IMG/VR virus record: IMGVR_UViG_3300028608_000082
Coordinates: 1-23,281 of that record
Source: a virus
DNA length: 23,281 nucleotides
Direction: 5' to 3' (one strand)
Part shown: piece by piece, positions 17,827 through 21,297 of the stretch
Position numbering within the stretch: position 1 is the first letter of the stretch
Layout of the letters: each line of letters opens with the position of its first letter
The notes under the pieces: model-generated
Database searches by the model: none
The model's input: only the letters and a program-made list of their open reading frames with translations
What the model was told of the DNA's origin: nothing
Program-made: the position numbers and the translations under genes

Positions 17827-18591
17827 ATGCGAAAGCACATCGTGAATGCGATCCAGGCGCACGCGGCGGCCGAGTACCCGAAAGAGTGCTGCGGGCTGCT
17901 GCTGGCGGTCGGACGAAAACAGCAATACTTTCCGTGCCGCAACCTTTCCAGCGAGCCGAACGAGGAATTTCGGATCGATCCGGAGGAATTCGCCGCGGCC
18001 GAGGACATCGGTGACGTGATCGGAGTGGTTCATTCACATCCGGACGCCACCAGCCGCCCGTCACCACGCGACCTCGCCATGTGCGAAGCGACGGCCATGC
18101 CCTGGCACATCCTGAGCTGGCCAGAGGGCGACCTGCGCACGGTCATGCCGACCGGCGATGTCCAACTGCTGAAGCGCCCGTTCGTACATGGTGCGTGGGA
18201 CTGCTGGCAGGTCTGCGCCGATTGGTACAAGCGCGAGTGGGGACTGGAGTTCGAGGCCTTCAAACGTGCCGATGGTTGGTGGGAGAGCAAGGAAAACACC
18301 AGCCTGTACGAGGCCAACTACGAGGCCGCCGGCTTCTACCGCGTTGACCAGCCGCAGCGCGGCGACATGATCGTGATGGAAGTGGGGCGGACGGTTTATC
18401 CGAATCATGCCGGGATCTTTCTCGGCACCGATCCGGCGCTGCTCGGCGAGGATGCAGCAACCTTCGGCCCCGGCCCGTTCCTCTTGCACCACCTATACGG
18501 TCGCCCGAGCGAGATCATCGTCTTCGGTGGGCCGTGGCTGGACCGAACACGACTGATCCTCAGACACAAAGATGCACAACCAACCACATGA
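17827..18591 (+). CDS. Lambda K-like tail-tip peptidase (JAMM + NlpC/P60)
   Basis: This 254-aa two-domain protein has an N-terminal JAB/MPN metallopeptidase with the full JAMM set: E20 in PKECCG, H69 and H71 in HSHP, S79 and D82 in SPRD. A C-terminal NlpC/P60 cysteine peptidase follows, with C126 in WDCWQ and H194 in NHAGIF. Lambda gpK has the same architecture and is needed for tail-tip assembly and probably for local peptidoglycan opening. The start ATG 17827 is preferred over a TTG at 17812 because CCAGGAG lies 5 nt upstream. In lambda, gene I follows K directly. Here about 2.1 kb of accessory genes intervenes before the I-like gene. Confidence 0.94.
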   Translation: MRKHIVNAIQAHAAAEYPKECCGLLLAVGRKQQYFPCRNLSSEPNEEFRIDPEEFAAAEDIGDVIGVVHSHPDATSRPSPRDLAMCEATAMPWHILSWPEGDLRTVMPTGDVQLLKRPFVHGAWDCWQVCADWYKREWGLEFEAFKRADGWWESKENTSLYEANYEAAGFYRVDQPQRGDMIVMEVGRTVYPNHAGIFLGTDPALLGEDAATFGPGPFLLHHLYGRPSEIIVFGGPWLDRTRLILRHKDAQPTT

Positions 18592-18616
18592 CGCGGCAGG
18601 ACCGAAGGAGAGTCAT

Positions 18617-18754
18617 ATGAAAAAAACAATTGCAGGCAGCGCCAAAAATTCCAGCGGGAAGGTAGCTTGGCTGATGATGCCGGATGGGAGCTTTTACATC
18701 AGCCGACAGGCTGTTGAGGATGCAACCATCCAGCACGTAAAACTTAGGACTTAG
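18617..18754 (+). CDS. 45-aa basic ORF at the left edge of the accessory island
   Basis: This short ORF reads MKKTIAGSAKNSSGKVAW, then LMMPDGSFYISRQAVEDA, and ends in HVKLRT. A good AAGGAGAG ribosome binding site lies about 5 nt before ATG 18617, better than for the longer frame from 18572. It is 25 nt downstream of the K-like gene and its 3' end overlaps, tail to tail, the last 11 nt of the opposite-strand gene. The family is unknown to me; the beta-hairpin-like centre suggests a folded peptide. Late expression with the tail genes is expected. Confidence 0.6.
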   Translation: MKKTIAGSAKNSSGKVAWLMMPDGSFYISRQAVEDATIQHVKLRT

Positions 18755-19004
18755 TTTGGGCTTGTTTTGCGGCAAACTCTTCCGAACTCAGTACGACTGG
18801 AAGGTTTTTGCCGGGGAAGACAGTTTGAAAAATCTGCATTGGGTAGTAGTCACCCACACCTTGCTGGCGGCAGGCCAGAACTGCCGCGCCAATCCTCGCC
18901 AGCGCATGGTCTGGATTGGAAGCCGCCTCGGTATGTGCGAGCGCCAATACCAAATTCGTTAGTTGAGCGATAGCGTGTTCAACGCTAATTTCCTGCTGTG
19001 ACAT
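18744..19004 (-). CDS. 87-aa opposite-strand accessory (moron) protein, function unknown
   Basis: This is the only convincing - strand gene in the window. The protein begins MSQQEISVEHAIAQLTNLVL, with two Ala-rich helices to about residue 48, then GVGDYYPMQIFQTVFPGKNL and an acidic-basic tail. A CTGGAGG ribosome binding site lies 5 nt upstream of the ATG at 19004, which argues against the longer frame from 19091. Its orientation against the late operon means it should be silent in lytic growth and expressed from its own promoter in the lysogen, the usual moron arrangement. I do not recognise a family. Small size and placement are compatible with a phage- or host-defence modulator, but nothing in the sequence shows that. 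Confidence 0.68.
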   Translation of the reverse strand: MSQQEISVEHAIAQLTNLVLALAHTEAASNPDHALARIGAAVLACRQQGVGDYYPMQIFQTVFPGKNLPVVLSSEEFAAKQAQTKS

Positions 19005-19024
19005 TTCGACCTCCAGGTCATAAA

Positions 19025-19080
19025 TGCGCCGACATTGGCGCAATCCCAGTCCTTGGGCTTGCAGGCTAAGGACTGGGGTT
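19025..19080 (-). promoter_or_regulatory. Two adjacent dyads in the leader of the opposite-strand gene
   Basis: AATCCCAGTCCTT (19042-19054) pairs with AAGGACTGGGGTT (19068-19080) as a 13-bp stem with one T-G pair and a 13-nt loop. Immediately beside it, TGCGCC (19025-19030) pairs with GGCGCA (19037-19042). Neither is followed by a clear T tract on either strand, so these are more likely operators or a structured 5' leader than terminators. Confidence 0.55.
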
Positions 19081-19187
19081 ATCCATTGCATGGAGGCATG
19101 AGGCTACTACGACGGTCAGTGAAATGTTACTGGTTGTCCATCCACATCAGATAGACAGATAAGCGGCATCACTCTTTGGGGAACATC

Positions 19188-19231
19188 GTGTCAACATTAA
19201 ATTGACACCTATCCTTGACTTCGGCAGACTC
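19188..19231 (+). promoter_or_regulatory. Candidate promoter with operator dyad before the Panacea gene
   Basis: GTGTCAA (19188-19194) and TTGACAC (19202-19208) form a perfect 7-bp dyad over a 7-nt centre. The right arm contains a consensus -35 box TTGACA (19202-19207). With a 17-bp spacer the -10 would be CAGACT (19225-19230), a weak match. A protein bound to the dyad would block the promoter, consistent with autoregulation of a two-gene unit. Confidence 0.5.
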
Positions 19232-19275
19232 GCGCCTCATTTTGAGACTGGTCATTTGTACAGGAGGGCCACACG

Positions 19276-19743
19276 ATGAGAGATGCACGTGCTGTTGCCC
19301 AGCAAATACTCAATGAATGCTGGGCCGCTGGAATATCTGCTGTCACACCAATGCAGCTCCTAAAGCTTGTGTATATCGCACAAGGATACATGCTGGCGAA
19401 AAACGACGTACCGTTGTTCAATGAGCCCGTTGAAGCTTGGCAGTATGGCCCTGTGGTTCGAAGCGTATATCAGGCTGTCAGAGACTTTCGCTCCGACCCA
19501 GTAACACATGTCCCTTACGCCCCGCCAGCACTTTTCTCGCCTCAAGAGATCTCGATAATGCGGGAGGTGGCGCGAATTTATGGGGGAGCTGATGGGGTTA
19601 AATTATCCGCTGCAACGCATCAGCCGGGCACTCCTTGGAGCGTTACATGGACAACATCGGGCATGAACTCGGTGATTCCTAACGAAAGCATAAAAAACTT
19701 TTACCGGTACATTCTCAGCCAGCCTTCCCATTCAATGCTATGA
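19276..19743 (+). CDS. Panacea-domain (DUF4065, SocA/GepA-like) protein, probable antitoxin
   Basis: This 155-aa protein has the Panacea/DUF4065 hallmarks: an N-terminal LNECWAAGISAVTPMQLLKLVYIAQGYML block (about residues 12-40) and the EAWQYGPVVRSVY motif (53-65), then a helical C-terminus. The domain serves as a versatile antitoxin module in PanAT toxin-antitoxin pairs and in ClpXP-adaptor-type SocA. AGGAGG lies 8 nt upstream of ATG 19276. Its stop overlaps the membrane-protein start by 4 bp (ATGA), the expected antitoxin-then-toxin order. A dyad overlapping the -35 box upstream suggests autoregulation. The domain call is firm; the antitoxin role is inferred from the family and gene pairing. 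Confidence 0.85.
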   Translation: MRDARAVAQQILNECWAAGISAVTPMQLLKLVYIAQGYMLAKNDVPLFNEPVEAWQYGPVVRSVYQAVRDFRSDPVTHVPYAPPALFSPQEISIMREVARIYGGADGVKLSAATHQPGTPWSVTWTTSGMNSVIPNESIKNFYRYILSQPSHSML

Positions 19744-20201
19744 CTGACCAATCAAGCAACTCGGTTCCGCCGAGCGCACCTACCAGTATTTTTGATGTGC
19801 CGACACCTGCTGAAGGTTCGCCGATTCGCGAGTTTTTCGATAAAGAAAAACTCGCTTTCGAACAAAATAATCTAGACCAAAATCAGCGTCGAAAGCACGA
19901 TAATGAAATTCATGGTATGCGGAAGCTGCATGCTTGGTTGCTTTTTGGATTGACAGTATGCTGGGTTGTCTTTCTTTGGATCGCTCTTTTGCTTGATGGA
20001 TTTGGGCAGTGGTTTTCCCCGATTCCAGATAGCTACGAATACATAAAATTCAAAGTCTCCGACTCTGTAATGATTGCATTCATGACGACTACCACTACAA
20101 CTGTCCTTGGCTTGTATGGTATCGCTGCCTACTGGCTGTATGGAAAACCTAAAGCGGTTGAAGCCAAGTCTCCTGCGAAGAAAGAAAAGAAGCCCAGCTA
20201 A
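19740..20201 (+). CDS. Two-TM membrane protein paired with the Panacea protein, candidate toxin/effector
   Basis: This 153-aa protein has a cytoplasmic-looking N-terminus. It is Pro/Ser-rich to residue 27, then a charged helix of about 30-64 rich in Lys, Asn, Gln and Asp. TM1 lies at about 65-87 (WLLFGLTVCWVVFLWIALLL) and TM2 at about 108-134, containing six consecutive Thr before VLGLYGIAAYWLYG. The tail is very basic (KKEKKPS). Both termini probably face the cytoplasm. It overlaps the Panacea gene by 4 bp and ends inside a terminator hairpin, so the two genes are one operon. Membrane-active toxins are known partners of Panacea antitoxins. Coding DNA is visibly richer in A/T than flanking tail genes, suggesting transfer. 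Toxicity is inferred, not shown. Confidence 0.75.
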   Translation: MTDQSSNSVPPSAPTSIFDVPTPAEGSPIREFFDKEKLAFEQNNLDQNQRRKHDNEIHGMRKLHAWLLFGLTVCWVVFLWIALLLDGFGQWFSPIPDSYEYIKFKVSDSVMIAFMTTTTTTVLGLYGIAAYWLYGKPKAVEAKSPAKKEKKPS

Positions 20202-20267: not shown

Positions 20268-20666
20268 ATGAAACTGATCTTAGGGGCGTTGGCTATAGCG
20301 CTGTTGATGGGATGCGCTACATCCCCGATCCCATCTGATAGAGCCGACTCTGTACCGGCCTCCAGGCTGTTTGCCAATCAAAAGCCGCATGCAGGCGGTG
20401 CGGTTTTGGTCGTGACAAGGGATACGGGATTTATCGGAAGTGGGTGTAACACCACTGTCAGCATCGATGGGCAGAAGAGTGCCGAGATCGGATCTGGTGA
20501 AACCGCGAAATTCTTCGTTTCCGCTGGCGACCACATCGTCTCTGCGTCCGCCTGCGGAAGCGGGCTGAAAGAGCGCGAGGCCTCAATGAAGGCTGGCGCC
20601 ACGAAGCGATTCAGGATATCCATCGATTCGGCGATGAGCATGGATATATCACCAACAACTTACTAA
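20268..20666 (+). CDS. Small lipoprotein, candidate superinfection-exclusion or conversion factor
   Basis: This 132-aa protein begins with a lipoprotein signal: MKLILGALAIALLMGC, with lipobox LLMGC and acylated C16. The mature part is beta-rich (GGAVLVVTRDTGFIGSGC, TTVSIDGQKSAEIGSGE, TAKFFVSAGDHIVSASA), resembling small domains of the DUF2846 type, a weak match by eye. C62 and C97 of the precursor could form a disulphide. ATG 20268 is chosen over a GTG at 20259 because the signal peptide then has normal length; AGGAG lies 10 nt upstream. It is flanked by terminators on both sides. Lipoproteins coded near phage tail-tip genes, such as Cor, often block the receptor against superinfection; that role is inferred. 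Confidence 0.85.
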   Translation: MKLILGALAIALLMGCATSPIPSDRADSVPASRLFANQKPHAGGAVLVVTRDTGFIGSGCNTTVSIDGQKSAEIGSGETAKFFVSAGDHIVSASACGSGLKEREASMKAGATKRFRISIDSAMSMDISPTTY

Positions 20667-20706: not shown

Positions 20707-21297
20707 ATGAGAGCCACAACTGACTTCAATCAGGGCATGACGACCATACTGCTTTCCGGGCCTTTGGCAAAACTGTTCGGACGAACGCATTATCGAGAGC
20801 TAGGCAGCAAGTCCGTGGGCGAGGCATTCAAGGCGCTGAAGTGCACTCTTGATGGTTTCGAAGAGGCAATAAAAAACCTTGAGCGTCGAGGCATGCGGTT
20901 CGCCATATTCCGTAACAGAGAGAACGTCGGGGAAAATAACTTCGCGTTGGGCGGCGCTCAAGAAATAAGGGTTGTTCCGGTCATTTCTGGAAGCAAGCGC
21001 GCGGGACTGCTGCAGACTGTCATTGGTGCAGTGTTAATCGCGGCCGGAAGCTATTTTGGGCAGCCATGGGCCGTTCAATTGGGCGTCGGTCTTGCGGCGG
21101 GCGGCGTCGTGCAAATGCTCAGCCCGCAAGCCAAAGGGCTTTCTCAAAGCGCGTCCCCCGAGAATGCCCCGTCGTATGCCTTCGGCAGCGCCAAAAACAC
21201 CACGGCAAGCGGCAACCCGGTGCCAATTTGCATCGGCGATCGCAGGTGGGGGGGAATGATCATCTCGGCTTCGGTCCTGGCCGAAGACAAAGCGTAA
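20707..21297 (+). CDS. Tail assembly protein I-like (lambda tail I family)
   Basis: This 196-aa protein resembles lambda gpI, a tail-tip assembly factor that acts with K, L and J. It has the family pattern MTTILLSGPLAKLFGRTHY, then VGEAFKALKCTLDGFEEAI, a beta-grasp-like N-terminal domain. A hydrophobic segment lies at about residues 101-138 (GLLQTVIGAVLIAAGSYFG and GVGLAAGGVVQMLSP). The C-terminal YAFGSAKNTTASGNPVPICIGD is typical of the family. ATG 20707 is chosen over a TTG at 20692 inside the terminator tail, although no strong ribosome binding site is visible and ATG 20737 is an alternative. It stands between two near-identical terminators, detached from the K-like gene by the island. Confidence 0.88.
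   Translation: MRATTDFNQGMTTILLSGPLAKLFGRTHYRELGSKSVGEAFKALKCTLDGFEEAIKNLERRGMRFAIFRNRENVGENNFALGGAQEIRVVPVISGSKRAGLLQTVIGAVLIAAGSYFGQPWAVQLGVGLAAGGVVQMLSPQAKGLSQSASPENAPSYAFGSAKNTTASGNPVPICIGDRRWGGMIISASVLAEDKA

Follow-up and report, generated by a model that had tools for sequence, protein, structure and literature searches.

A candidate tail-assembly inhibitor and antidote pair encoded antisense to one another in the tail operon of Pseudomonas lambda-like phages

In the tail operon of a lambda-like phage, a small minus strand gene (A) and an even smaller plus strand gene (S) converge and overlap. Both genes are under purifying selection and vary together, and A follows a leader and a promoter-like motif that are shared with many other small antisense genes. 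On balance, we favour the interpretation that A is an inhibitor of tail assembly comparable to Tab and Tai, that S is its antidote, and that the two form an exchangeable cassette in Pseudomonas lambda-like temperate phages.

A convergent gene pair in the tail operon

The window, i.e. the whole stretch of DNA that was analysed, is a virus record of 23,281 bases with a lambda-like late operon. The features relevant for this study are:

17830..18591, plus strand: tail gene K (JAB and NlpC/P60), left neighbour of the cassette
18593..18604, plus strand: position of the S-leader hairpin of relatives, GCGGCnnnGCCGC; degenerate in the window, folding gives no support (z 0.37)
18617..18754, plus strand: S gene, 45 aa; convergent tail-sense partner directly after K, overlaps A by 11 nt
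18744..19004, minus strand: A gene, 86 aa; open reading frame, one of 22 sequence clusters behind the common leader
19007..19020, minus strand: palindrome holding the SD motif of A
19026..19041, minus strand: leader hairpin 2, GCGCC-6-GGCGC, 5-6 bp; outside the search pattern, yet found in 114 of 119 loci
19045..19077, minus strand: leader hairpin 1, CCCAGTCCTT..AAGGACTGGG; base pairing mostly maintained despite sequence changes in other Pseudomonas leaders
19103..19133, minus strand: promoter-like motif CCAGT-N18-GTAGTAGC of the antisense operon
20707..21297, plus strand: tail gene I, the next tail gene on the right; variable cargo lies between gene I and the cassette

The A gene starts with an ATG at 19002-19004 and encodes 86 aa, followed by a stop codon. 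The original prediction of an 87-aa gene was right about the open reading frame and had counted the stop codon. The strong ribosome binding site that had been predicted is GGAGG at 19010-19014, five bases 5′ of the ATG, and A is indeed the sole minus strand gene in the window, according to a gene list assembled by hand from the table of open reading frames. The convergent 45-aa gene on the plus strand (18617-18754) had been overlooked. The GC content of the stretch between K and I is lower, about 0.51 versus 0.62.

Selection was estimated from pairs with moderate synonymous divergence only. For the cluster of A homologues the median dN/dS was 0.10 and all eight usable pairs, which are not independent, had values below 1; for A cluster 0, values below 1 were obtained for 26 of 31 pairs. 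Because of this purifying selection, the neutral pattern that had been named in advance as grounds for doubting the gene does not apply, and a spurious open reading frame, which was also considered, is ruled out by the selection together with the genomic matches.

A protein scan revealed homologues of A at 14 IMG/VR loci and in two Pseudomonas genomes. At these 16 loci, the tail genes found by tblastn are all antisense to the homologue, and a homologue of S was matched at ten of them. The 86-aa protein has no match in Pfam or NCBIfam up to E 1, and the best match in PHROGs has an E value of 0.3. Six further A representatives gave no match worth naming in Pfam and PHROGs, the 17 members of the largest A cluster yielded just two chance-level names in NCBIfam, and A5 and A6, compared by sequence with solved structures, gave nothing below E 0.3. 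A confident model of the 86-aa protein (pLDDT 86) predicts four helices; it has no Foldseek match at E 0.001 in BFVD or PDB, and a second look with VIA-align gave a best Z of 4.8, which is uninformative for a helical bundle. The protein is thus a predicted four-helix protein without a clear known relative. Four helices are also predicted for the largest A cluster (pLDDT 79; no BFVD match at E 0.001). KD19 values above 1.8 were obtained for 3 of 95 A proteins, so that few look membrane-bound.

S and its co-variation with A

Identified via its hairpin-plus-SD start, S was recovered at 78 of 110 loci (among the matches listed) and was missing or unrecovered at 32; it overlaps A in 72 of the 78 cases. 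For the S genes that are paired with the 86-aa A, the median dN/dS was 0.35, and all 19 pairs had values below 1. The S of the window matches phrog_33126 (E 1.1e-4) and another S matches phrog_37353 (E 1.2e-19), both of unknown function.

The two genes vary together. With 70 distinct A-S pairs, S was similar in 135 of 292 comparisons within the same A cluster versus 64 of 2123 comparisons between different clusters. The observed value was reached in none of 500 permutations (maximum 39), and part of this coupling is what is expected of adjacent genes that are inherited together.

At two loci (L002 and L003, phages D14C and PP9W2), S is intact and the A relative is a fragment without a clear start; this cassette seems to have lost its A.

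One leader precedes many different genes

The pattern of hairpin 1 matched at least 120 stretches in IMG/VR, some of which duplicate contigs from the A protein scan. The window and the matches listed represent 121 places, 110 of which have a complete downstream open reading frame. These encode 95 distinct proteins in 22 clusters (single-linkage), and among the matches listed, 89 of the 95 proteins have a length of 60-95 aa. The idea that the leader is private regulation of the one A gene has to be abandoned, because the same leader precedes all of these proteins. Profile comparison merges some of the helical A clusters, e.g. the L047-type and the L106-type (probability 91.5). The 86-aa family stays apart from the other clusters, with a best probability of 4.8.

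At 65 of 120 loci (among the matches listed), the cassette is located exactly between K and I. The remaining loci have K downstream and no tail gene upstream (21), I upstream and nothing downstream (10), the TMP gene upstream and nothing downstream (9), L and M on the two sides (1), K upstream only (1), or no tail gene on either side (13). The nearest tail gene is antisense to A in all 107 of the 120 listed loci that have a tail gene. Similar cassettes are present between I and J in the P. aeruginosa phages Alize, YMC11/02/R656 and vB_Pae_U2, and between M and L in phita81A and the plasmid record CP124637.

From at least 125 collected leaders, the analyst picked 42 for a covariance model. In the genus group, it detected leaders in 61 of 298 genomes at E 0.001, and 52 of these reached E 1.3e-7 or better. 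In a sample of 293 genomes of the order, with an unstated share of the genus, three had a match at 1e-5, and all three also match in the genus sample. Matches near 24 bits resemble chance, e.g. at L150, where the first 1200 of 3090 bases contain no tail gene by eye. Of 20 weaker genome loci that were judged, 11 have an intact A-like open reading frame, L179 has a 47-aa version, and eight have none. A profile of the 86-aa A matched six of the 298 genomes of the genus group, and all six genes start directly behind a leader detected by the model; one genome (G001) had contributed to both models and one (G220) to the protein profile, four (G002, G036, G160 and G291) had contributed to neither, and the locus of G002 (L020) is near-identical to a row of the profile (L013).

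To evaluate the exchange of A, the identity of the neighbouring K proteins was used. At K identities of 93-97%, 122 pairs of loci have different A clusters and 18 have the same. At identities of at least 97%, one pair with different A clusters stands against three with the same cluster and four duplicate pairs. Conversely, for 11 pairs the A proteins are at least 90% identical at K identities below 86%. The evidence for exchange is taken from the 93-97% class and from these 11 pairs, because the highest class has a single pair with different clusters.

Some loci have larger genes at the position of A. By eye, the 234-aa A protein of L061 resembles a nuclease, and its gene is followed by an additional copy of the promoter-like motif and one more gene. 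The A proteins of L037 and L109 (194-205 aa) contain an R-x4-H stretch as in HEPN domains; for L109, the match to Pfam HEPN_Cthe2314 has an E value of 0.15 only.

Structure of the leader

The DNA alignment of the A-homologue loci revealed about 80 conserved bases 5′ of the A start with a sharp outer edge, which are present even in L018, the protein of which is merely 44% identical. The original prediction had placed two dyads of 13 bp and 6 bp in this doubly structured leader. Both dyads are real, with different sizes: the stem of hairpin 1 has 10 bp plus two inner base pairs, and hairpin 2 has 5-6 bp. A third palindrome (19007-19020), which contains the SD motif, has to be added. The leader strand folds at −35.8 kcal/mol, and none of 200 shuffled sequences was as good (z −3.96).

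In P. aeruginosa leaders, the stem of hairpin 1 differs in sequence and still pairs. In a set of 13 variants of hairpin 1, 95.5% of the cells pair, a count that favours pairing, as the variants were hand-picked for a gapless alignment and irregular ones (e.g. L187, L192, L195 and L196) were omitted. The covariation score and the number of cells changed on both sides exceed all 500 shuffles; the number of pairs with changes on both sides (reached in 34 of 500 shuffles) and the number of further pair types (237 of 500) are not clearly above them. In the alignment of 42 leaders, the covariation term of RNAalifold is small (−0.18), and only 2 of 15 base pairs have changed on both sides, each in just three sequences. 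The search pattern fixes most of hairpin 1, and its conservation in L021-L140 is therefore partly due to selection by the pattern. Hairpin 2 is missing in a third group of leaders. We regard the leader as likely, not proven, to be a structured RNA. At E values up to 1, no Rfam model matches the window region 18600-19300. A likeness between the leaders of A and tab with respect to an SD motif within a hairpin was dropped, an equally good stem having been found in 74 of 2000 shuffles.

A promoter-like motif upstream of the leader

The 121 loci (1.22 Mb) contain 109 copies of the relaxed form of the motif, CAGT-N17..24-(G/A)TAGTAGC, all of them on the leader strand (109/109). In 101 of the 109 cases it is located at most 1300 nt upstream of a leader, and the motif accompanies 88 of the 101 leaders for which the upstream sequence is long enough. 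It had been derived from these very loci and was loosened afterwards; its stricter form has 59 matches, 57 of them within 1300 nt, and covers 50 of 101 leaders. Outside the defining loci, the motif precedes five of five P. aeruginosa-type leaders, six of six leaders of the main third group, L179 and L187; it was not found at L184, L191, L193 and L194. At many loci it lies some 310-465 nt upstream, leaving space for another antisense gene.

On the minus strand of the region 18000-20000, no sigma-70-like site was found, and the only terminator-like site is inside K; sites of this kind are not more frequent than expected by chance. The S-leader hairpin was examined as a possible terminator for A, and the list of predicted sites has no entry at this position. 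We infer from the sequences that the motif could be the promoter of A.

Similarity of S to the tail-tip protein J

A profile of 14 S sequences related to the S of the window was compared with all six-frame open reading frames of the loci. Of 56 matches longer than 150 aa at E values up to 10, 48 were to J, with a best single E value of 0.0025. Two other matches score better than J, namely a frame of L009 that itself contains an S gene and a 234-aa protein of L031. The latter (L031:2936-3637, minus strand) is encoded near a cassette as a separate protein and has C-terminal segments like those of J.

When five S groups were compared with J, one gave a clear match (E 1e-6 to 5e-5), two a weak match, and two none. 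The profile of the 14 S sequences matches J segments, which were chosen by a motif expression, with a probability of 89 (P 2.3e-6; 0 of 60 shuffles as good). With the eight closest S sequences alone, the hhalign probability is 5, and 2 of 60 shuffles are as good. Three of the 14 members reach PF09327 at E 0.1. Judged by these scores, the S family that is paired with the 86-aa A resembles the C-terminal segment of J weakly to moderately; the likeness is real for the wider family and weak for the S of the window. The comparison for which no J segments had been chosen beforehand gives the more modest result.

Comparison with Tab/anti-Tab and Tai/Ati

Tab/anti-Tab is a system of the Mu-like P. aeruginosa prophage JBD26. 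According to its description, Tab is an 83-aa minus strand protein that has its own promoter and is expressed from the prophage, and anti-Tab is a plus strand partner in the late operon, which binds and disarms Tab (PMC10884400). The loss of anti-Tab alone is reported to be harmful to the phage, and to be harmless once Tab is lost as well. The genes are located between the terminase genes, the target is the tape measure protein, and the system is reported only for close relatives of JBD26 (PMC10884400). In the JBD26 record, the two 83-aa genes converge with a 47-nt overlap. In both cases, a small minus strand gene faces a convergent, overlapping plus strand gene positioned in the late operon. 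They differ in that the pair described here is located in the tail operon, not between the genes of the small and the large terminase subunit, and in that it has many unrelated A families, an S family with similarity to J, and a conserved common leader.

The similarity of the 86-aa family to Tab does not exceed chance (60 of 100 shuffled sequences reach its score). The A cluster of L047, L067, L101, L107 and L193 can be aligned with Tab without gaps across 63 columns (P 4e-4, 0 of 100 shuffles), a value of about 0.009 after correction for the 21 A families tried. When this cluster is merged with its nearest clusters, the match fades, with probabilities of 34.5, 5.7 and 1.6, and one A cluster other than the 86-aa family can thus be said to match Tab weakly at the sequence level. 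Tab has relatives in 36 phage records, 35 of them with at least 99% identity, and at three IMG/VR loci with 97-100% identity; because these are too alike, no Tab profile was built. The Tab-like A protein has no match in the phage collection and in IMG/VR matches its own contig only.

Tai/Ati systems have been described for phi80 and other phages. As reported, taiEcA is transcribed in the direction opposite to the late operon, atiEcA is part of this operon, Tai is made in the lysogen and blocks tail assembly, and Ati is the product of an adjacent counter-defence gene (PMC11364771). In phages with a J protein, escape mutations map to the C-terminal region of J; TaiEcA has 204 aa, and the two phi80 genes are divergent (PMC11364771). 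The type of gene layout is the same in our loci, i.e. an antisense gene interrupts the late operon and an adjacent partner lies inside it. In contrast to the phi80 genes, A and S are convergent, and the sections of the source that were consulted mention no common leader for Tai/Ati. For the 21 A families, the best hhalign probabilities are 2.3 against TaiEcA and 0.3 against AtiEcA. TaiEcA carries a stretch resembling the R-x4-H of L037 and L109; the profiles do not match.

By these comparisons, no homology of the 86-aa family to Tab or Tai is detectable. By analogy we claim that the 86-aa A would work like them, and membership in either family is not claimed. Our literature searches, which left most subscription papers out of reach, found no paper on these A-S pairs among the results listed.

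Proposed mechanism and alternative explanations

The 86-aa gene would be the antisense half of a compact two-gene cassette that was inserted into the tail operon. It would be transcribed from its own promoter-like motif through the conserved structured leader, and because of this motif and leader, A could be made in the lysogen while the late genes are silent. S would be transcribed with the late tail operon and would meet A tail to tail. We infer that A would prevent a superinfecting phage from assembling its tails, with the tail-tip protein J as the most likely point of attack. S would neutralise the A of its own prophage once the latter enters the lytic cycle. In this family, S may be a decoy that resembles the C-terminal segment of J, which is suggested because the S family resembles the very region of J in which Tai escape mutations occur. 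The earlier proposal of a separately regulated modulator that is expressed during lysogeny agrees with the promoter-like motif, the exchangeable cargo and the Tab/Tai layout, with expression in the lysogen being the conditional part; it did not include the likely function, which would be defence against the assembly of rival phages.

Morons are extra genes between conserved late genes, with their own control, lower GC content and exchangeability. A might be an ordinary moron that changes the lysogen otherwise, i.e. by an entry block, a receptor change or host modulation, and S an unrelated tail-tip protein that hitch-hikes via the overlap. The regulation of A, the lower GC content of the K-I stretch (about 0.51 versus 0.62), the exchangeability of A and the great diversity of A families are all typical of morons or compatible with them. 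However, this explanation appears unlikely to us, as the co-variation of A and S, the selection on S, and the Tab/Tai layout call for a partner role of S, and A proteins seldom look membrane-bound. The loci also differ from morons in having a pair on two strands and one leader with many alternative cargos. The location of S in the late operon and its resemblance to J could alternatively point to a module for tail-tip variation, in which S would be added to the tail tip as a decoration or extension, with A as its assembly helper or regulator. An opposite-strand gene with its own motif would be odd for a late helper, and phage Medea1 (L004) matched neither A nor S and has other genes in the K-I gap, so that tails of this kind can do without the pair; we consider this module improbable.

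Small, paired, co-varying and overlapping genes are also reminiscent of a toxin-antitoxin or addiction pair directed against the host cell. With opposite strands and different control, a toxic A would be unopposed in the lysogen, and the scanned A proteins reached no curated family, which makes such a pair a little less probable still. At the bottom of our ranking stands the possibility that the RNA is the product, i.e. that antisense transcription from the motif damps the late tail genes in the lysogen and the open reading frame is secondary. The antisense position and the strongly conserved leader would fit; they are set against protein-level selection on A as well as on S, and the replacement of A by unrelated open reading frames of similar size.

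An extension of the inhibitor and antidote interpretation is more tentative, and we regard it as possible rather than probable. The cassette would be a polymorphic modular defence locus, in which one motif and leader serve interchangeable antisense inhibitors of the tail assembly of rival phages, each exchanged together with its own late-expressed antidote, and S would here titrate the inhibitor by imitating the J tail tip in miniature. If so, interference with virion assembly would not be confined to a few phages as a rarity but would amount to a diversified weapon locus; this sample contains 22 A clusters (among the matches listed), and the leader is present in 52 of 298 genus-group genomes. 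The leader and the motif would then allow many new inhibitor/antidote pairs to be found by sequence even if they lack homology to those already known, and the locus would bear on the question of which Pseudomonas phages grow in which lysogens.

Other genes between K and I

In addition to the cassette, the K-I gap of the window carries a Panacea/SocA-type gene, a 153-aa gene and a lipoprotein gene. The antitoxin-like Panacea/SocA-type gene (PF13274, E 1.3e-16) is directly followed by the 153-aa gene (19276-20201 for both), the product of which has two hydrophobic stretches by eye; the two genes are divergent from A and resemble what we take to be a PanAT-type pair. The lipoprotein gene (20268-20666) matches phrog_890 (E 4.4e-40), and many related loci have such a match between the cassette and gene I.
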